From Chitinivibrionales bacterium (GTDB lineage Bacteria; Fibrobacterota; Chitinivibrionia; Chitinivibrionales; FEN-1185): 64,000 nt of DNA. Positions 258 through 18,500 of this stretch are shown in pieces; position 1 is the stretch's first letter; each line of letters starts with the position of its first letter. Made by a program: the position numbers and the translations under genes. The notes under the pieces were generated by a model. That model was not told where the DNA came from, searched no databases, and was given only the letters and a program-made list of their open reading frames with translations. The DNA lies in contig DATJAL010000030.1 in the NCBI GenBank assembly GCA_035516255.1, forward strand, positions 1 through 64,000. Direction: 5' to 3'.

Positions 258-395
258 GGCTAACGCCGCGCTAATATGCCGGACTACGACCGCATTTTCC
301 CTCCGCAAACCACGAATCTTTTATGAAGAACCAGCCGACCGCGAGCCACAGGTGTTTGCAAATGCGGACGGTCATGATTTAGCGCGTTGTTAGGC
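258..395 (-). repeat. attC site 1 (integron cassette recombination site)
   Basis: Read on the minus strand, R'' is GCCTAAC (389-395), L'' is GCGCTAA, L' is TTAGCGC and R' is GTTAGCC (258-264). The arms between them are imperfectly self-complementary (GACCGTCCGCATTT against AAATGCGGTCG), the fold-back shape that integron integrases recognise. The site closes the cassette whose gene is at 404-1321. R'' matches that cassette's own leading GTTAGGC at 1331-1337. Confidence 0.92.
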
Positions 396-403
396 GTTCT
401 CCA

Positions 404-1321
404 TTAGTATTCCTTAAATTGTATTCTTATTATACTTTCTTTAATTGGCTTATATTTTACTTGTTTCAAAATAGGGCAAACTGCAACTGTATCATTAACA
501 AATTTAAACCTGGCTCCGCCCCCTAAAGTTAAATTGAACATTGAATTTAGATTGCAAAAAAAATGGATTTTATGATCTAATTTATTATAAATCCAATACT
601 CATAAATTTCTTTTTTGCAATCCTTTGAAATAATTGGGCTGCAAGAATAGCTAAATATGACTATTTTCCCAGATTGCCCATCATAATTAAAGTCGCTTGG
701 AAAACCAGTAGGTTTCTGAATAAAAGAAATATTGAAATTGGTATCGTTTTGAATTAAATATTTATTTGCATTTGATAATTCAATGTTAGTTGTTCTACTG
801 TCTAAAAGATTAAAAATATTTACCCATTTTTCTCTTGAATCTATTCTGTTAATTACCAATAAATTCCCATAAAAAAATGGCCCTCCACCAAAATTGTAAC
901 CAATATTCTTTTCAATAAAATCTATACTATCAATTAATTTACCACTATCGGCAGAAAACTTATGTAGCTTTGTGCCGAAATAAACGTAAAGATAACCATT
1001 CAAATATTTTAAATCAAGAGCGGATTTATTGAATTTCCATTTTATTTCTCCCTTATTATTGCATTTATATATTTCGGGTCCAAATTCGAAGTAGACTGAG
1101 TATTCACTGTCAACATCAAAATTAGTGATTTGTCTATTAAAGCAATCGTTCATTTCTGTTCTCAAGCAATTTTTACAATTACCATACTTAATTGAGAATA
1201 TTGTATCAACAGTAAATATTGCTTTATTGTTTATTAATAATTCTCTTGAGAAAGGTAAGTTACTCTCAGAGTAAAGGCTTGTAGTTAAGAATAGTAATGT
1301 AAATAATAATTTCTTATTCAT
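404..1321 (-). CDS. Cassette-borne secreted protein of unknown function
   Basis: This 305-residue protein starts with a Lys-rich n-region and a hydrophobic signal peptide (MNKKLLFTLLFLTTS). The start at 1321 is chosen because the longer frame only translates attC sequence. The body is rich in Asn, Lys, Tyr and Phe. It has short stretches such as YLYVYFGTKLHKF and SADSGKLI that resemble PQQ/WD-type beta-propeller blades, so an exported propeller protein is possible, but I do not recognise a family. It is the fourth gene of the array counted from attI. Base composition is strongly AT-rich, unlike the GC-rich core genes, as expected for a captured cassette. Confidence 0.75.
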   Translation of the reverse strand: MNKKLLFTLLFLTTSLYSESNLPFSRELLINNKAIFTVDTIFSIKYGNCKNCLRTEMNDCFNRQITNFDVDSEYSVYFEFGPEIYKCNNKGEIKWKFNKSALDLKYLNGYLYVYFGTKLHKFSADSGKLIDSIDFIEKNIGYNFGGGPFFYGNLLVINRIDSREKWVNIFNLLDSRTTNIELSNANKYLIQNDTNFNISFIQKPTGFPSDFNYDGQSGKIVIFSYSCSPIISKDCKKEIYEYWIYNKLDHKIHFFCNLNSMFNLTLGGGARFKFVNDTVAVCPILKQVKYKPIKESIIRIQFKEY

Positions 1322-1330
1322 TTTTATCTC

Positions 1331-1468
1331 GCCTAACGCCGCGCTAATTTGCCGGACTACAACCGCATTTTCAGCTTGCAAACCACCAATCTTGCTTGAA
1401 GAACCGACCGACCGCTAACCAAGGGTGTTTGCAGATGCGGACGGTCATGATTTAGCGCGTTGTTAGGC
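1331..1468 (-). repeat. attC site 2
   Basis: It has the same ~137-bp architecture as the other sites. R'' GCCTAAC (1462-1468) and R' GTTAGGC (1331-1337, minus-strand reading) flank L'' and L' boxes and long fold-back arms. It closes the cassette holding the gene at 1474-1995. Its R'' is the exact complement of the GTTAGGC that opens that cassette at 2015-2021, so the cassette is intact. Confidence 0.93.
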
Positions 1469-1473
1469 TTTAA

Positions 1474-1995
1474 TTAGTGTAAATTGCTTATTATTACAGC
1501 AGCCAATATTCCACCAAGTATTCCACCTAAAATTGAACTCGTTATTATTGTGGCATTTTTAGTATGATCCTTATTAACTCTTTCTTTCAATTCTATGCTA
1601 TCTACCGAATTTGATTTTAATTCCTTCTTAAATTCTGAACTATCTTGGAAATTGCTTTTTATTAATAATGCAGTTGCTCGATAACAAGAACTTAAGAAAT
1701 CCGGCCTTCTTTCTTCGATAATATTTACCACGTCTGCACCACAATTGCACGCTTCCTTTCTAAATATTTCAATTGCATCATCTTCACCGCATGCAAAAGA
1801 AAAACCGCTGTCGCCGACCTTAACTCTACCAATAATTTTCACTGAAGTTGAATCGATACGCACATTTTTAACTACATTAACATTACAATTTGAATTCTTT
1901 TTATTATTATCGTATTTATATCCATTTCTTATAACAATATGCGTACATCCAATGCCAAGCAATAGAATTGCAAATGAAATTAAAACGTATTTCAT
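1474..1995 (-). CDS. Cassette-borne lipoprotein with C-terminal membrane segment
   Basis: This 173-residue protein has a lipoprotein signal (MKYVLISFAILLLGIGC, lipobox LGIGC, Cys17). A Cys-containing middle part (FACGEDDAIEIFRKEACNCGAD) follows, then a charged linker and a C-terminal hydrophobic Gly-rich helix (GGILGGILAAVIISN). The middle section recalls small secreted proteins with an 'ADVV' strand, but I cannot assign a family. A lipidated N-terminus combined with a C-terminal glycine-zipper helix suggests an envelope protein. It is the third cassette gene from attI, is AT-rich and sits 20 bases from its attC. Confidence 0.8.
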   Translation of the reverse strand: MKYVLISFAILLLGIGCTHIVIRNGYKYDNNKKNSNCNVNVVKNVRIDSTSVKIIGRVKVGDSGFSFACGEDDAIEIFRKEACNCGADVVNIIEERRPDFLSSCYRATALLIKSNFQDSSEFKKELKSNSVDSIELKERVNKDHTKNATIITSSILGGILGGILAAVIISNLH

Positions 1996-2014
1996 TTATT
2001 TCTCCTTTTTATGA

Positions 2015-2152
2015 GCCTAACGCCGCGCTAATATGCCGGACTACGACCGCATTTTCTCTCCGCACGCCACCAATCTTGCTTGGATAGGCGAGGGCTGGCA
2101 CGCCAAGAGTGTTTGCAAATGCGGACGGTCATGATTTAGCGCGTTGTTAGGA
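2015..2152 (-). repeat. attC site 3
   Basis: R'' TCCTAAC (2146-2152) and R' GTTAGGC (2015-2021) are read on the minus strand. The internal L boxes and arms are nearly identical to sites 1, 2 and 4. R'' complements the GTTAGGA that opens this cassette at 2597-2603, which shows the cassette (gene 2162-2581) is complete. Confidence 0.93.
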
Positions 2153-2161
2153 GTTCTTTCT

Positions 2162-2581
2162 TCATTTCGTAAATACAAAAGGGTATGTTACTTCTGTGAC
2201 ATCATCCCGTTTCTCTATTTGGTCAAAATTTATTGAATTTATTATTACCAATATTTTGGAATCAAACCCGGGGCTATTTGAATTGGATTCAGTAATCTTA
2301 CTTGATGTAACAACTCCCAAATAGTTTATCTTGAAGAATACAACAACCTTCATATAATCCGGATATTTGTCCTTAAATTCCTCATTATATAATTGCCTTA
2401 CTCTTCCAATATTTCCCATTATCCCTTTCATAAGATTCTCTCGGCTTCTACCACCAGTTAACGCTCCGCCTTTTACAAATCCAGGCTTAGCCTGTTCTGA
2501 ATTGGTTGAATTCTGATGGATAGTTTTGTTTGTGCAGCCAAGGCAAAGAGGTAAGAGCACGAGAATTAATATGGATTTCAT
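2162..2581 (-). CDS. Cassette lipoprotein with AgmX/PglI (TonB-C-like) domain
   Basis: This is a 139-residue lipoprotein with signal MKSILILVLLPLCLGC and Cys16 as the lipidation site. The start at 2581 is chosen because upstream codons lie inside attC. After a short linker, the C-terminal ~100 residues follow the AgmX/PglI C-terminal domain pattern: GGRSRENLM, RVRQLYNEEF, a strand pair VVVFFKINYLGVVTSSKI, ES, and the ending DVTEVTYPFVF. That domain is common in Fibrobacterota and myxobacterial envelope proteins and resembles the TonB C-terminal fold. In those proteins it is usually attached to a membrane anchor or FHA domain, so a lipidated free-standing version on a mobile cassette is unusual. 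Confidence 0.82.
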   Translation of the reverse strand: MKSILILVLLPLCLGCTNKTIHQNSTNSEQAKPGFVKGGALTGGRSRENLMKGIMGNIGRVRQLYNEEFKDKYPDYMKVVVFFKINYLGVVTSSKITESNSNSPGFDSKILVIINSINFDQIEKRDDVTEVTYPFVFTK

Positions 2582-2596
2582 TGTTTTCAATTTTAC

Positions 2597-2734
2597 TCCT
2601 AACGCCGCGCTAATATGCCGGACTACGACCGCATTTTCTCTCCGCACGCCACAAATCTTGTATGAGCAACCGACCGACCGCGAACAAAGGGTGTTTGCAA
2701 ATGCGGACGGTCATGATTTAGCGCGTTGTTAGCC
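2597..2734 (-). repeat. attC site 4 (first attC after attI)
   Basis: R'' GGCTAAC (2728-2734) and R' GTTAGGA (2597-2603), minus-strand reading, carry the same L'' GCGCTAA and L' TTAGCGC boxes and fold-back arms. R'' complements the GTTAGCC at the proposed attI junction (3279-3285), so the cassette carrying 2729-3259 is complete. The stop codon of that gene lies inside the attC. Confidence 0.93.
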
Positions 2735-3259
2735 GGATTTCTTTTGTATTTTTGGTAATATAAAATTGTAATCTAGAAATGAAGAATCCTTTAAACAAAA
2801 TGAATATAGCCTCAAGGAATCTTCATCGTTGAAAATGGCCTCGATTTTGCAATTGTTTCTATTATAGGCTTCGGAGTGCCATGGAAGACAAGGGATCCTT
2901 AATGTAAAACAATTATTAATAACAAAACGGCCTCCACCTCCAATGCAAAGAAAATCCATACGATCTTTCTTAGAGTAAGCCTTCTCGACATTTACCTCTT
3001 TTATTGATTCAACAAAAATCTGTGGTAATATCCTTATTGTGTCATATTCATAAACATACTTACGAGCTCCTGGTTCACTTTGGGCAGATTCTTTTTCTTT
3101 TGATACAACCAATAATTTTACTGAATCAATCTTCATTGATATAAGATGTTTGTAGGATATTCCCTTATATTTGTTTGGACTGCAATTAAAGAGTACCAAT
3201 GCAAATGAGATGAATATTGCAGTAAAACAATTGTTGTTTAATGCCAGCTTTGTTATCAT
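2729..3259 (-). CDS. First-position cassette lipoprotein, unknown function
   Basis: This 176-residue protein has a signal peptide ending in a lipobox-like LVLFNC (Cys26). The mature part has a charged segment, a GGGGRFVINN motif and four or five Cys residues (FLCIGG, NNCFTLRIPCLPW, NNCKIEA, YSFCLKD). I recognise no family. It is the cassette nearest the integrase, so it should be the best expressed from any Pc promoter in the attI region. The start at 3259 lies 20 bases from the attI junction. Its 3' end overlaps the attC by six bases, a compact arrangement typical of cassettes. Confidence 0.78.
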   Translation of the reverse strand: MITKLALNNNCFTAIFISFALVLFNCSPNKYKGISYKHLISMKIDSVKLLVVSKEKESAQSEPGARKYVYEYDTIRILPQIFVESIKEVNVEKAYSKKDRMDFLCIGGGGRFVINNCFTLRIPCLPWHSEAYNRNNCKIEAIFNDEDSLRLYSFCLKDSSFLDYNFILPKIQKKSG

Positions 3260-3278
3260 TATTATTTCTTTTGATATT

Positions 3279-3345
3279 GGCTAACAGATATTAGTCTTTA
3301 AACGACATAAATAATTAAGTCGACAGACGACATAACAATAATTAT
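3279..3345 (-). promoter_or_regulatory. Putative attI region
   Basis: Between the first cassette and intI lies a core site reading GTTAGCC on the minus strand (3279-3285), the boundary expected for attI. Two direct copies of cgacataa (3303-3310 and 3328-3335), 25 bp apart, could be integrase-binding direct repeats like those of attI1. The segment is AT-rich and could hold the cassette promoter Pc, but I could not pick a convincing -35/-10 pair. Confidence 0.55.
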
Positions 3346-3383
3346 TTTAACCGGTAAACCATCCACCTCCCAAGGATACACTT

Positions 3384-4682
3384 ATGACCCTTCATCAGTC
3401 AAGTTTGCTCTTGACAGACTATACCGCCACTTTGCAAAAACTACGTGTTCCTGATAATAAAAGCAAGTTCTACGTCTTATGGGTCAAGCGGTTTGGGCGG
3501 TTTCTCAATGGTGTTTCATTTGAGCAGGCATCTCCCGGGATGGTGGAAGCCTTTCTGGATGACCTCGCCACCGATCCGAAAATCGAGGAATGGCAGGTTG
3601 ACCAGGCGCGTGAGGCGGTGATGATCCTTTTTTCCGATCTTCTCAAAATGAACCTGCATTACTCGGGGTTCCGGAAAAATGAGGGGTTCAAGGATTCACT
3701 CGCCCCTGGAGATCGTCTCGAAACGCTCCACGGCCGCCTGCTCGGGAAGGTCGTTTCGGAAATCCGGGTCCGCCATTATTCCCTCCGTACCGAGGAAGCG
3801 TACCTGGCCTGGATACGGCGGTTCATCACCTTTCACGATTTGCGGGACCCGCAGGACCTCGGCCCTCGCGACATCGGGAAATACCTGGATTTTCTCGCGG
3901 GCAAGCGCAATGTTTCGGCGGCAACGCAGAACCTTGCGCTTAATTCGCTCGTGTTCCTGTACAAACAGGTTCTCGGAAAAGATCCCGGCGAATTCGGCGA
4001 TTTCACGAGGGCGAAAACGGGTTCTCATGTTCCCACCGTGCTTTCCAGGGACGAAATCGAGCGGTTGCTTGGAAACCTTGACGGCGCGTATCGGACCATG
4101 GCGGGGATTCTCTGGGGGGCGGGCCTCCGCGTGATGGAATGCGTGCGGCTCAGGATACAGGACATCGATTTTGACCTGCGCAGGATCGTCGTGCGGGATG
4201 GCAAGGGCGCAAAAGACAGGATCACCATGCTTCCCGCGCGGTTCGTCGCGCCTATCAAGGAGCAGATCGGTGTGTCCAGAAAGCTGTTTGACGACGATAG
4301 GGCCCACAAGGTCCGAGGCGTGTATCTCTGGCCCGCCATCGAGCGGAAGTTTCCCAACGCCGGCAGGGAATGGATTTGGCAGTATGTTTTTCCGTCGGAA
4401 AGGCTTTCGGTCGACCCGCGCACCAGGAGCGTGCGGCGGCACCACCTTGATCCCAACGTGCTCCAGCGCCGCATCAAACGCGCCGCGCTTGATGCGGGCA
4501 TCGCCAAGCGCGTGAGCTGCCACACGCTGCGCCACACCTTCGCCACCCAGCTTCTGCAGGCGGGCGCAGACATCCGCACGGTGCAGGAGTTGCTGGGCCA
4601 TTCCGATGTGTCAACAACGATGATCTATACGCACGTGCTCAACCGGCCCGGCTTGGCGGCGGCCAGCCCGGCGGACGCCTGA
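3384..4682 (+). CDS. intI: Integron integrase (tyrosine recombinase)
   Basis: This 432-residue tyrosine recombinase inserts and excises cassettes at attI/attC. An SAM-like core-binding domain spans about residues 112-205 (HYSLRTEEAYLAWIRRF). The catalytic domain has Arg249 (GAGLRV), His380 and Arg383 (HTLRHTF), His406 (LLGHSD) and nucleophile Tyr415 (MIYTHV). The segment around 312-345 (VYLWPAIERKFP, EWIWQYVFPS) is the extra patch that separates IntI from XerC/D. An additional ~100-residue N-terminal region makes it longer than class 1 IntI (337 residues). An AAGGA ribosome site precedes the ATG. The gene is GC-rich like the core genome, unlike its AT-rich cassettes, and diverges from the main array. 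Confidence 0.96.
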   Translation: MTLHQSSLLLTDYTATLQKLRVPDNKSKFYVLWVKRFGRFLNGVSFEQASPGMVEAFLDDLATDPKIEEWQVDQAREAVMILFSDLLKMNLHYSGFRKNEGFKDSLAPGDRLETLHGRLLGKVVSEIRVRHYSLRTEEAYLAWIRRFITFHDLRDPQDLGPRDIGKYLDFLAGKRNVSAATQNLALNSLVFLYKQVLGKDPGEFGDFTRAKTGSHVPTVLSRDEIERLLGNLDGAYRTMAGILWGAGLRVMECVRLRIQDIDFDLRRIVVRDGKGAKDRITMLPARFVAPIKEQIGVSRKLFDDDRAHKVRGVYLWPAIERKFPNAGREWIWQYVFPSERLSVDPRTRSVRRHHLDPNVLQRRIKRAALDAGIAKRVSCHTLRHTFATQLLQAGADIRTVQELLGHSDVSTTMIYTHVLNRPGLAAASPADA

Positions 4683-4710
4683 GGCTGGAATCCCCCCGCG
4701 GACCGTTGCG

Positions 4711-4753
4711 TTTACAAATGCGGACGGTCATGATTTAGCGCGTTGTTATGTGG
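4711..4753 (-). repeat. Half attC site, cut off at the 3' side of intI
   Basis: Only the R''-L'' half of an attC is present: acaaatgcggacggtcatg, then ttagcgcgttgttatgtg. It matches the right ends of sites 1-4, but the L'-R' half is missing and the sequence runs straight into the 28 bases after the intI stop codon. Its R'' (CACATAAC on the minus strand) complements the GTTATGTG opening the PrsW cassette at 5849. It is therefore the genuine attC of that cassette, truncated. Confidence 0.88.
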
Positions 4754-4756
4754 AAA

Positions 4757-5839
4757 TTAGATTTTAATTAAATTGTCTTGACTTATTCCTAAAAAGTATT
4801 TTGCAAGAATCGATTTTTCGAATTTCTCTTTGTCATTTGTCTTTATTTTATTAATTTCGCTATCCATTTCGTCTACATTTATGTACCCGATTTTTCTATA
4901 ATCGTCTATATAATTTCCAGAAAACAGTGAATAAAGATTGCCATTTTCATTTAATTTATAATTTTTTGTTATTGCATCATAATTTCCTGAGAAATAATGA
5001 AAGAGCCAAAATATTGAATCTCTTGTTGCAATTATCTTTCCACAATTAGCACATTTAAACAATTTAGCTTTCCCAATTTTATAGTAATTCTTCTTATCAT
5101 TATTGCCGCAATTAATACAAATTGCTTTTTTACTCCCATTTGGAGTTTTCAAATTATTAACATATGATTGAAATGAGACTTTTCTATTTAATGCAGTTAA
5201 ATATGAAAAGCAGAAGAATATTTCTTTCCAATAATATCTGTACAATACAAATAAAACAATCCATCCCAAACCAATAAGTATTAAAAAATCAAAGGTTCCA
5301 TGAAGAATAGAAGCGAAAACGAAAGCTCCAAATATTGTATTTATTTTATACCCCAAATTATTATATAGATATATAGCCAAACCCATAACTGCCGAAAATG
5401 CAATATGCATTGGTGTTGATATTCCTAATCTAATAAACAAAAGAGGTAAATTCCCTTGCTCTTTCGTTGCATACATTATGTTTTCTATTAATGAAAACCC
5501 TAATGTCAAGCATGATATATAAATAATATAATCAATTGGTTCATCTAAATCTTTTGATAAAAATGGAAGCAAAACAACAAATGTGATAAGTTTAGCAAAT
5601 TCTTCAACCGGTCCTATTTTAAAATATGCATCCAAGAAATTATTTTGAAAATTATACCCAATATTTTTAAATAATATATAAAGTCCAATAGATATTAGTA
5701 CGGATATTATTCCACCAATTACCGTAACAAATGACATTTTAACAATTGGTTCTTTTTCAAATATATCGTGATCTCTAATGTAATTAATTGAAAAAGCACC
5801 CAAAATAAACGAAATTACAACTGCGATATATTTTATCAT
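4757..5839 (-). CDS. Cassette-borne PrsW-family intramembrane protease
   Basis: This 360-residue membrane protein resembles PrsW glutamic-type intramembrane proteases. Conserved family positions are visible: PVEEFAK (the EExxK-like motif), FSLIENIMYA, HIAFSAVMG and HGTFDF, each in a hydrophobic helix. About seven or eight helices cover residues 1-210. The C-terminal part carries a CxxC...CxxC zinc-ribbon-like segment (ICINCGNNDKK, FKCANCGKII). PrsW in Bacillus cleaves an anti-sigma factor; the substrate here is unknown. The start at 5839 is set by a GGAG site and by the attC just upstream. The gene is AT-rich, and its cassette lies on the far side of intI from the main array. Confidence 0.85.
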   Translation of the reverse strand: MIKYIAVVISFILGAFSINYIRDHDIFEKEPIVKMSFVTVIGGIISVLISIGLYILFKNIGYNFQNNFLDAYFKIGPVEEFAKLITFVVLLPFLSKDLDEPIDYIIYISCLTLGFSLIENIMYATKEQGNLPLLFIRLGISTPMHIAFSAVMGLAIYLYNNLGYKINTIFGAFVFASILHGTFDFLILIGLGWIVLFVLYRYYWKEIFFCFSYLTALNRKVSFQSYVNNLKTPNGSKKAICINCGNNDKKNYYKIGKAKLFKCANCGKIIATRDSIFWLFHYFSGNYDAITKNYKLNENGNLYSLFSGNYIDDYRKIGYINVDEMDSEINKIKTNDKEKFEKSILAKYFLGISQDNLIKI

Positions 5840-5848
5840 TATTTCTCC

Positions 5849-5985
5849 ACATAACGCCGCGCTAATATGCCGGACTACGACCGCATTTTCAGCTTGCAAA
5901 CCACCAATTTTGCTATGAGAACCAGCCGCCCGCACGCAAAAGCTGATCGCACCCGCGGACGGTCATCAGCGAGCGCGTTGTCAGC
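5849..5985 (-). repeat. attC site 5, with a degenerate outer end
   Basis: The left half matches the other attC sites: R' GTTATGT on the minus strand, L' TTAGCGC and the arm that pairs with gcggacggtcat. The right half has drifted: caccc replaces the usual tttgcaaat, the L'' box is gone (cagcgagcgc), and the end reads gttgtcagc. It probably belongs to the cassette with the lipoprotein gene 6027-6485 and may fold poorly. Confidence 0.8.
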
Positions 5986-6026
5986 AGCTCTTTCATTGCT
6001 TTTTAGTGTTGTGGCTATGGATTTAC

Positions 6027-6485
6027 TTAATTTGCTTTAAATTTTCCCCAATTGCTTGGAGGTATCGGACCAAAATAGGGAAGATATTTGTCTATCAATC
6101 TATATCCAATACTGTCGGCTAAGGCCATTAATAGTGTGTCTTTACTAAACGATTTTACCCAATTTTTATAAATTTGACCATTTAATGAAAGGGTATCTGA
6201 TTTCCATAGGTATGAGCTTGCGTATCGTTGCCAAGAAGAATCTGCGAAAATGAGGTATGCTATTAATGAATCTGTTCTAATTGTTATTATTGACTGAATT
6301 AATGTGTTGGAAAATACGGTGTCAGTTTCATAGGAAGAATAGATTGCCGAATACCCGTACCAATACCAGTTTCCAATTAGATTTTCAGTGTCGATGCTTG
6401 AGATGGGATTTGAATTGTTTCTTGTACATCGTGCAAAGAATAAAATACCCATGAGACAAATTATGCACAAGAGCGACCTATTCAT
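6027..6485 (-). CDS. Probable cassette lipoprotein, unknown function
   Basis: This 152-residue protein has a signal peptide ending LFFARC (Cys20). The mature part, ENLIGNWYWYGYSAIYSS..., resembles lipocalin-like 'GxW' secreted domains, which begin with a Gly-x-Trp strand. It is AT-rich and oriented like the other cassette genes, and attC site 5 lies just downstream. Upstream, cgctgac (6504-6510) shares GTCAGC with the R'' end of site 5 but lacks a clean GTT core. The outer boundary of this cassette therefore appears eroded. An ATG preceded by AAGGAG-like sequence supports the start at 6485. Confidence 0.72.
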   Translation of the reverse strand: MNRSLLCIICLMGILFFARCTRNNSNPISSIDTENLIGNWYWYGYSAIYSSYETDTVFSNTLIQSIITIRTDSLIAYLIFADSSWQRYASSYLWKSDTLSLNGQIYKNWVKSFSKDTLLMALADSIGYRLIDKYLPYFGPIPPSNWGKFKAN

Positions 6486-6693
6486 CCTTTTCTCCTTTTT
6501 TACCGCTGACGGGTGTCAGTTTACAAACTCCATGATGTCAAATCATCATCGTTACTTTTACCGCTTTTCCGCATATTCAACTTTGAATATAATAATCCCG
6601 TCATCCAATCACAAATCAAGCCCTATTTCTTATAAAAATCCGTAAAAATTATATATTTTGTGCAGTCAGGCGGTCTTATACGGAAACGGCGTT

Positions 6694-15536: not shown

Positions 15537-18500
15537 ATGAACAAAGCCAATCATCCATATCTTGAACTACTGTATTCCAGGACCCCTATAATTTTCGACG
15601 GAGCCATGGGAACACAGATTCAGGAACTCGGGGTCAGGCCTTCCGATTTCCGCGACCACGAAGGATGCAATGAGATCCTCAATGTGTCGCGGCCCGATCT
15701 CATCACCAGGATCCACACCAACTACCTGCGGTCAGGCGCGCATGTCATCGAGACCAACACCTTTGGCGCGAACCGCGCAAAGCTCATGGAATACGGGCTC
15801 GACGGCTCGGTCGCGGAAATCAACAAAACGGCCGCGCAGCTCGGCAGGGCCGCGGTTGCGGAGGCGTGCTGCAACCATGCCTGTTTCGTGTGCGGCACCA
15901 TGGGACCCACCGGCATTCTCTCGTCTCAAAGCGCGGGCCGGAAGAAATTCGATTTCAACGGGACCGCTGCGCTGTTCCGCGAGCAGGCCACGGCGCTGCT
16001 CGACGGCGGGGCGGACCTCCTGCTCCTCGAGACCATGCATGACCTTCTCGAGCTGCGCGCCGCGGTTTCCGGGATCAGGGGTCTTCTTGACGAACGCGCA
16101 ATTACTATTCCGCTCCAGGCGCATGCGAGCATGGACGCGGCCGGCCGCATGCTTCTGGGCTCGGACCTCATCGCGTTTCTTGCCGCGGCCGCGGGCATGG
16201 GCGTCGACGTTGTCGGCCTTAACTGCAACACCGGGCCGCATGAGATGAAACGCCACGTGGAGGAACTGCTGGGTCTGTCGCCGCTGCCGGTGTGCATGAT
16301 GCCGAACGCGGGCATGCCGAAAAACGTAAACGGCAAGGCCGTATATGACATGGGGCCCGACGAGTTCTGCAACACGATCGTTCCGCTTGTCTCGGAGAGG
16401 GGGCTCAATGTCACGGGAGGGTGCTGCGGCACGACGCCGGCGCACATCACCGCGCTTGCGAAGGCGCTTGACGGAAAGAAGGCCGCCCGGCGCACCATAA
16501 CGCCGAAAACGTTTTGCGGGTCCGGCATTTCGGGAAAAGACCTTGAAACGGAAAAAAAACCTTTTATCATCGGCGAACGGCTCAACACCCAGGGCTCCAA
16601 AAAGACAAAGGAGCTTGTTCTTGCAAAAAATTACGACGAGCTGTATCAGGTGGCGCTGGGCCAGGCCCAAATGGGGAGCAGCATTCTTGACTTGTGCGTG
16701 GCGGTGAGCGAAGCCGACAACGAAAAAGAGACCATGGCGGCGCTCGTTTCGTTTTTGTCCGAGCGCGTGGCGCTGCCCTTTTCCATCGACTCAACCGATC
16801 CCGCGGTCATCGAGGCGGCGCTCAAGGCCTGCCCCGGGGCCGCGCTTGTCAATTCGATCAACCTCGAGGCGGGCGGCAAGCGCGCCCGCGCGATCCTGCG
16901 GCATGCCAAACAATTCGGCTGCCCAGTCATCGCGCTCACCATCGATGATGACGGAATGGCAAAGACCGTCGAGAAAAAAATGGAAATCGCCCGCCGGCTC
17001 CGCGACCTTGCCTGCGGCCAGTTCAATCTGCCGGAGCATTTTTTATACATAGACCCGCTCACCTTCACACTCGCCGCCGGGGACGCCGAAGGCGCAAACG
17101 CGGCGAAGGCGAGCCTCGAGGCGCTTGCCCGGATAAAAACGGAAATGCCGGGCGTGCGCACGGTCATGGGCGTGAGCAACGTTTCGTACGGCCTTTCGCC
17201 CGCGTCGCGCAGGGTGCTCAACAACGTCATGCTCAATCACGCGGCCGAGGCCGGGCTCGACGCGGCGATATTCAATCCGCTGCATCTTGACAGAATAGAT
17301 ACCTATGCCCCGGCGGTCCGCGAAAAGGCCGAGGCCCTGCTGTTCAACCGCGCGCCGCAGGCGCTGGCCGATTTTATTACCGTGTTTGACGATAAAAAAA
17401 GCGGCGGCGCCGGTATGAGCCGCGAAGCGGAAAAAACCGCGCTTTCGCCTGAGGAGCAGCTCCGCAACAAGGTGATCAACCGGGACCGCCGCGACCTGGC
17501 GCCGTTAATAAACGGTTTGCTGGAAAAACACGAGCCGCAGCGCATCCTCGACGAGATTCTGCTGCCCGCCATGGCCATGGTCGGCGAGAAAATGGACAAA
17601 GGGGAAATGATCCTGTCGTTTGTGCTGCAGGCCGCCGAGGTCATGAGGGAGGCGCTTTCCATCCTTGAGCCGCGCCTTGCGTCGAAAAACATGGCGCGGC
17701 GGGGGAAAATCGTGCTTGCCACGGTGTACGGCGACGTTCACGACATCGGGAAGAACCTGGTCGCCACGATCCTCAGGAACCAGGGATACAACGTGGTCGA
17801 TCTCGGCAAACAGGTGCCTTCCCCGGACATCGTCGCCGCGGTGAAGCGCGAAAAGCCCGACGCCGTGGGCCTTTCCGCGCTGCTGGTCTTCACCAGCCGC
17901 GAAATGGCCGCGTGCGTGGCGGCGCTTGACAGGGAAGGAATAAGCGTGCCCGTGCTCATCGGCGGCGCTGCCGTGAACAGGGACTTTGCCTCGCGCATTT
18001 CGCGTCTGGAAAGCGGCGGCGCCTACGCGGGCGGCGTGCATTACGCAAAGGACGCGTTCGAGGCGTCGAAGATCCTTGAGGGGATAAAGAAGCCCCAGGC
18101 TTTTATGGAGAAAAAGGCGGAGCATCCGGCGGCCGGCCGGCCGCCTATAGAAGCAAAAACGCAGAAGCCGGAGCAGCCGCCGTATCCCGAAATGGTGACG
18201 CCCCAGTTCTACGGCACAAGTCAGGTGTTGAGGTGGGATGTGAAGTCGCTCTTGTCAACAATCGACACCAAACGCCTGTTCAAAGGGTATTTCGGCGGCG
18301 GCAATCTGGATAAAGAGGCCTTTAAAACAGCTTGCGAAAAGGAATTTCAACCGGCGTATGACCAGATTACACGGCTTATCAGCACGGAAAACCTTGTCGA
18401 TGCTGCGGGGCTGTACGGGATTTTTCCGGCATATACTGACGATGACAAACTGGTAATCCTTGACCCCGGCGACTATTCCTCGCACCGTGCCGAATTTATT

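Follow-up and report, generated by a model that had tools for sequence, protein, structure and literature searches.

Beside a gene for an integron integrase, near the start of a contig of a Chitinivibrionales bacterium, lies a row of small genes separated by long repeats. The question that this locus raises is whether the row is an integron, what the matched ends of its cassettes can tell about how it was assembled, and whether its integrase serves one attachment site or several. The window, that is the whole stretch of 64,000 nucleotides analysed, belongs to contig C30 and begins at the contig's first base. Its left part holds the following features; here and below, lipoprotein and secreted-protein calls were made by eye, and calls of PrsW and TonB-like domains by profile.

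258-395, minus strand: attC site closing cassette d (R'' 389-395, R' 258-264; fold z -3.1; 164.8 bits, from a model that this site partly built)
389-1337, minus strand: cassette d, gene for a secreted protein at 404-1321; ends R'' GTTAGGC (389-395) and opening core GCCTAAC (1331-1337), 8-nt match
1331-1468, minus strand: attC site closing cassette c (fold and own-genome covariance model)
1462-2021, minus strand: cassette c, lipoprotein-like gene at 1474-1995; ends R'' GTTAGGC (1462-1468) and opening core GCCTAAC (2015-2021), 8-nt match
2015-2152, minus strand: attC site closing cassette b (fold and own-genome covariance model)
2146-2603, minus strand: cassette b, lipoprotein-like gene at 2162-2581 with an AgmX/TonB C-terminal domain; ends R'' GTTAGGA (2146-2152) and opening core TCCTAAC (2597-2603), 9-nt match
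2597-2734, minus strand: attC site closing cassette a (fold z -1.9; own-genome covariance model)
2728-3285, minus strand: cassette a, the first behind attI, gene at 2729-3259; ends R'' GTTAGCC (2728-2734) and opening core GGCTAAC (3279-3285), 7-nt match
3279-3360, minus strand: attI (core and about 75 nt conserved; TTATGTCGT present twice on the minus strand as a direct repeat)
3384-4682, plus strand: intI, integron integrase of 432 aa (TIGR02249, 446.6 bits against a cut-off of 265)
3384-3659, plus strand: second, N-terminal core-binding (SAM-like) domain of IntI (PF13495, E 1.2e-10)

The repeats are 138 nt long and consist of an R stem, an unpaired spacer and an L stem, forming an R''-L''-L'-R' hairpin. 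When folding was compared with shuffled sequences, three of the four sites left of intI gave z <= -2.4 and the remaining one z -1.9; among the five full sites of the window, four lie between -1.9 and -3.1, and one decayed site stands at +0.55. Their near-identity, as first described, is borne out with a mean column identity of 90% over 13 sites. A covariance model built from 13 attC sites of this genome finds 18 strong sites on 6 contigs here (the model-building sites included, with several arrays cut by contig ends), those beyond the window being on C5, C9, C35, C47 and C50. Applied to the one further genome of the genus that was scanned, a sister genome with no part in the model, it detects 12 sites (E <= 2.5e-6), and it detects none in six more distant genomes of other genera. 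Were the repeats generic ones between small genes and not attC sites, the outcome of an Rfam search of the window, in which no family was matched, would be as expected; this reading is highly improbable in view of the integron integrase, the attI, the stem structure, the matched ends and the independent sites of the sister genome.

The placing of attI at the right edge of the array is likewise supported, its core abutting cassette a, and the roughly 75 nt of attI recur in two further places in this genome and in two places in the sister genome. A promoter scan around attI returned three weak matches, little above shuffled sequences. The last 300 residues of IntI align with IntI4 of 2a3v, the best PDB match, and R249, K274, H380, R383, H406 and Y415, which we take to be the catalytic residues, are all present by alignment; judged from its sequence, IntI is presumably still functional. 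Taken together, integrase, conserved attI, folding attC sites and matched ends support the integron reading, and the locus is almost certainly a chromosomal integron. IntI, encoded rightwards from 3384, would carry out recombination between attI at 3279 and the attC of a cassette folded as single-stranded DNA, the cassettes lying leftwards of attI on the minus strand. Sedentary chromosomal integrons of the Vibrio type have a divergent intI, an attI, near-identical long attC sites, mostly unknown cassette proteins and matched ends, all of which recur here. They are unlike the present system in that the latter has small arrays spread over several contigs, three attI copies in a single genome and cassettes behind intI as well. 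The term superintegron denotes a large array of 20 or more cassettes.

A further oddity of IntI is its tandem core-binding domain. Residues 1-92 constitute the second such domain, with four helices resembling the canonical ones in a predicted structure (mean pLDDT 82, pTM 0.52). It occurs in 24 of 80 named relatives, these being the loci kept as nearest to IntI, and some of the 24 served to build the domain profile. A literature search of titles and abstract starts returned nothing on a tandem core-binding domain of integron integrases.

The matched ends formed the core of the preliminary description, according to which the R'' of each closing attC and the core that opens the same cassette are exactly complementary over 7 nt. 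This is so in all four cassettes at 258-3285, and the boundaries and orientation of the cassettes are supported as well. Under random re-pairing of the ends, four matches in four have a probability of 0.084 for these cassettes alone, which is weak evidence because two of the cores are identical; cassettes of the same kind were therefore gathered from the rest of the genome. Both ends could be located in 16 cassettes (those cut by contig ends being left out, and C9_c being dropped as its neighbour's R' box is lost), of which 13 match exactly, against a permuted mean of 2.4 and a maximum of 10 in 200,000 permutations, so the pattern is real. No exact match is seen in C30_6, which agrees over 6 nt up to a mismatch, in C5_x, a 3-kb cassette agreeing over 4 nt, or in C9_d, with 3 nt. 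In the 13 matching cassettes the match spans 7-11 nt, and complementarity extends beyond the core by 1.44 nt on average, compared with 0.30 in crossed pairs (P 5e-6). This extension was considered as a possible novelty and rejected, since PMC2727003 already describes end complementarity of 9-11 nt for most cassettes. By contrast, exact complementarity between R' and R'' of one and the same attC within the array is limited to 2 of 13 sites, which is what one would predict for a match that is a property of the cassette rather than of the array site. R'' and opening core are the seam of the cassette's own attC, adjoining and paired in the hairpin stem in the circle and lying apart in the array. 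Matched cassette ends are textbook integron anatomy, and in this respect the locus adds one more chromosomal integron.

What the ends cannot do is to identify the process that placed them. The cassettes had been called intact on the strength of their ends; the ends are indeed intact, and excision is not proven by an end match. The stronger claim of insertion by integrase rather than copying is not borne out, as homologous recombination within the near-identical attC sites or copying of whole cassettes preserves the match equally. The 167 nt of one cassette, present at an end of both C9 and C47, show 1 difference between the copies, while its two attC sites are unlike at 11 of 138 positions, all of which lie outside the last 34 nt beside R''. 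This pattern looks like an exchange within attC, to go by the distribution of differences; such an exchange keeps end matches, and the match therefore cannot separate integrase from homologous recombination. Accordingly, one alternative holds that the arrays are now reshuffled by homologous recombination through near-identical attC arms, with the integrase playing no current part. The 90% likeness of the attC sites and the C9/C47 cassette, nearly identical yet with an exchanged attC body, speak for it. It is nevertheless rather unlikely, because unlike cassettes abut three attI copies with exact seams and no attC on the intI side, and because the catalytic residues of IntI are intact.

To the right of intI, arrays of the same type continue in the same single orientation, and intI is thus flanked by them on both sides:

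4692-4751, minus strand: half attC closing cassette 5 (R''/L'' arm retained as far as about the hairpin loop, without the L'/R' arm)
4745-5855, minus strand: cassette 5, gene for a PrsW-like membrane protease at 4757-5839, 10-nt terminal match
5849-5986, minus strand: decayed attC closing cassette 6 (z +0.55; 120.8 bits)
5980-6510, minus strand: cassette 6, lipoprotein-like gene at 6027-6485; ends match over 6 nt only

The half attC is sixty bases long and starts nine bases past the intI stop codon. A 3' flank common to two intI copies of the sister genome is missing here. The region would be what is left of a second, decaying array, joined by a rearrangement to the 3' end of intI; the fusion would have brought together that end and the eroded far end of the second array, which would explain both the cassettes on either side and the missing 3' flank. 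Among the 80 named loci, 30 offer 1.5 kb on both sides, and these include no clear case of arrays flanking intI on both sides; size-matched repeats occur in 3 of the 30 and were judged by eye not to be attC-like. Six proteins are encoded by the cassettes between 404 and 6485, namely four lipoprotein-like proteins, one secreted protein and the PrsW-like membrane protease, with N-termini assessed by eye. Tandem 23-base repeats of the GGTCATTTTGAGGCGGATT type occupy 66-180, inside a cassette cut by the contig end.

The part that merits specialist attention is the pattern of multiple platforms. The genome holds three attI copies, one beside the intact intI of C30 and two beside dead intI genes on C50 and C5, in a draft assembly that breaks within arrays, whereby some array ends are lost and a mixture of strains is possible. 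On C50, attI is accompanied by an intI that has lost a large internal part, and on C5 by only the start of intI; the two dead genes have an in-frame TAG in common and are about 96% alike. Directly next to each of the three attI copies stands a cassette whose ends match. The first cassettes at C50 and C5 are unrelated to each other, each with an 8-nt end match. A literature search of titles and abstract starts gave no description of several or orphan attI sites.

The attI of C30 is identical to that of C50 at 73 of 75 positions and to that of C5 at 72 of 75 (96-97%), whereas the leader behind attI agrees at 10/25 and 9/25 (36-40%) and the 5' end of intI at 96/138 and 99/138 (70-72%), respectively. 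The informative-site contrast (11:1:0 versus 14:22:24) has a Fisher P of 1.4e-5. The attI copies are hence more alike within the genome than their neighbour gene allows. At the live intI on contig C9 of the sister genome, attI is 84% alike and the intI start 75% alike. In that genome, one attI is paired with a live intI, a second is followed by 3.1 kb in which intI is lacking, and one live intI stands without a recognisable attI; the orphan attI there shows no particular resemblance to its live partner (51/66). Fast decay of the dead intI genes was considered and rejected, as their differences from C30 by codon position (11, 12 and 19) resemble those of the live pair of C30 and the sister genome, G001 (10, 6 and 18); by this codon pattern, the dead genes diverged mostly as live ones. 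A BLAST hint that the C50 and C5 genes are nearer to the second intI of G001 was unsupported, as end alignments give 66-76% to all three live copies. The common TAG sits within the extra N-terminal domain, and a shorter IntI, started internally, might have stayed alive on the dead platforms until the later deletions.

Two explanations offer themselves, an exchange of attI between platforms or an attI that follows the one working integrase. Judged by sequence comparison, there is an about even chance that the single live IntI serves, or recently served, the platforms with dead intI in trans. More tentative is the wider reading of a distributed integron, in which one live integrase acts on at least three attI sites in trans and these are kept alike while their own intI genes die, so that attI would track the resident integrase and not the neighbour gene. 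A reading with a somewhat better, still less than even, chance is that the likeness of the attI copies reflects recent duplication or gene conversion and that the extra platforms are inert relics. The similarity indeed ends at the border of attI and leader. Moreover, C50 and C5 differ at 3 of 75 positions in attI and at 5 of 138 in the dead intI, so that attI drifts as fast as the adjoining dead gene, and there is no sign of selection on attI since the split. Inert relics are hard to reconcile with the unlike attI-proximal cassettes at platforms with a common dead intI, which call for recombination that postdates the death of intI. Should the distributed integron hold, an integron need not consist of one integrase and one attI, and dead platforms could stay usable; cassettes would be spread over several chromosomal sites, and the evolution of attI could be measured apart from that of intI.

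Two known arrangements come close to these platforms. In Xanthomonas, according to part of PMC12444791, inactivated intI genes stand beside retained arrays as they do here, and strains with the same intI lesion usually carry identical arrays. Unlike the Xanthomonas integrons as presented in that part, platforms with the same lesion here hold different cassettes within one genome, in which a live intI is also present. CALIN, or attC clusters without intI, are matched by the arrays of C9, C35 and C47, where a genome-wide search found no intI in arrays that are cut by contig ends; mobilisation of CALIN in trans is stated in the same part of PMC12444791. C50 and C5 differ from CALIN in keeping an attI, which is not required by the definition of CALIN.

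Several minor observations concern attC sites elsewhere. The own-genome model gives a weak nineteenth match on C17 (E 0.017), and a lone attC lies on C5 at 16254-16393, about 5.4 kb past the dead platform on the side of intI. Both genomes of the genus also carry a second type of attC, distinguished by its L box (C50, about 130-227; L155, 2476-2614). On C5, at about 4765-5995, an attC is interrupted by roughly 1.2 kb of inserted DNA that has inverted ends and is flanked by GGACGGT at both sides. Additionally, each of the two genomes has an attC cut at the R'' box by the same element end (90% alike):

C35 17574-17665, and 1-85 of C19 in the sister genome: attC-cutting element end, both contigs ending inside the element

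This element is possibly an insertion sequence targeting attC, with the IS1111-attC type as a candidate identity.
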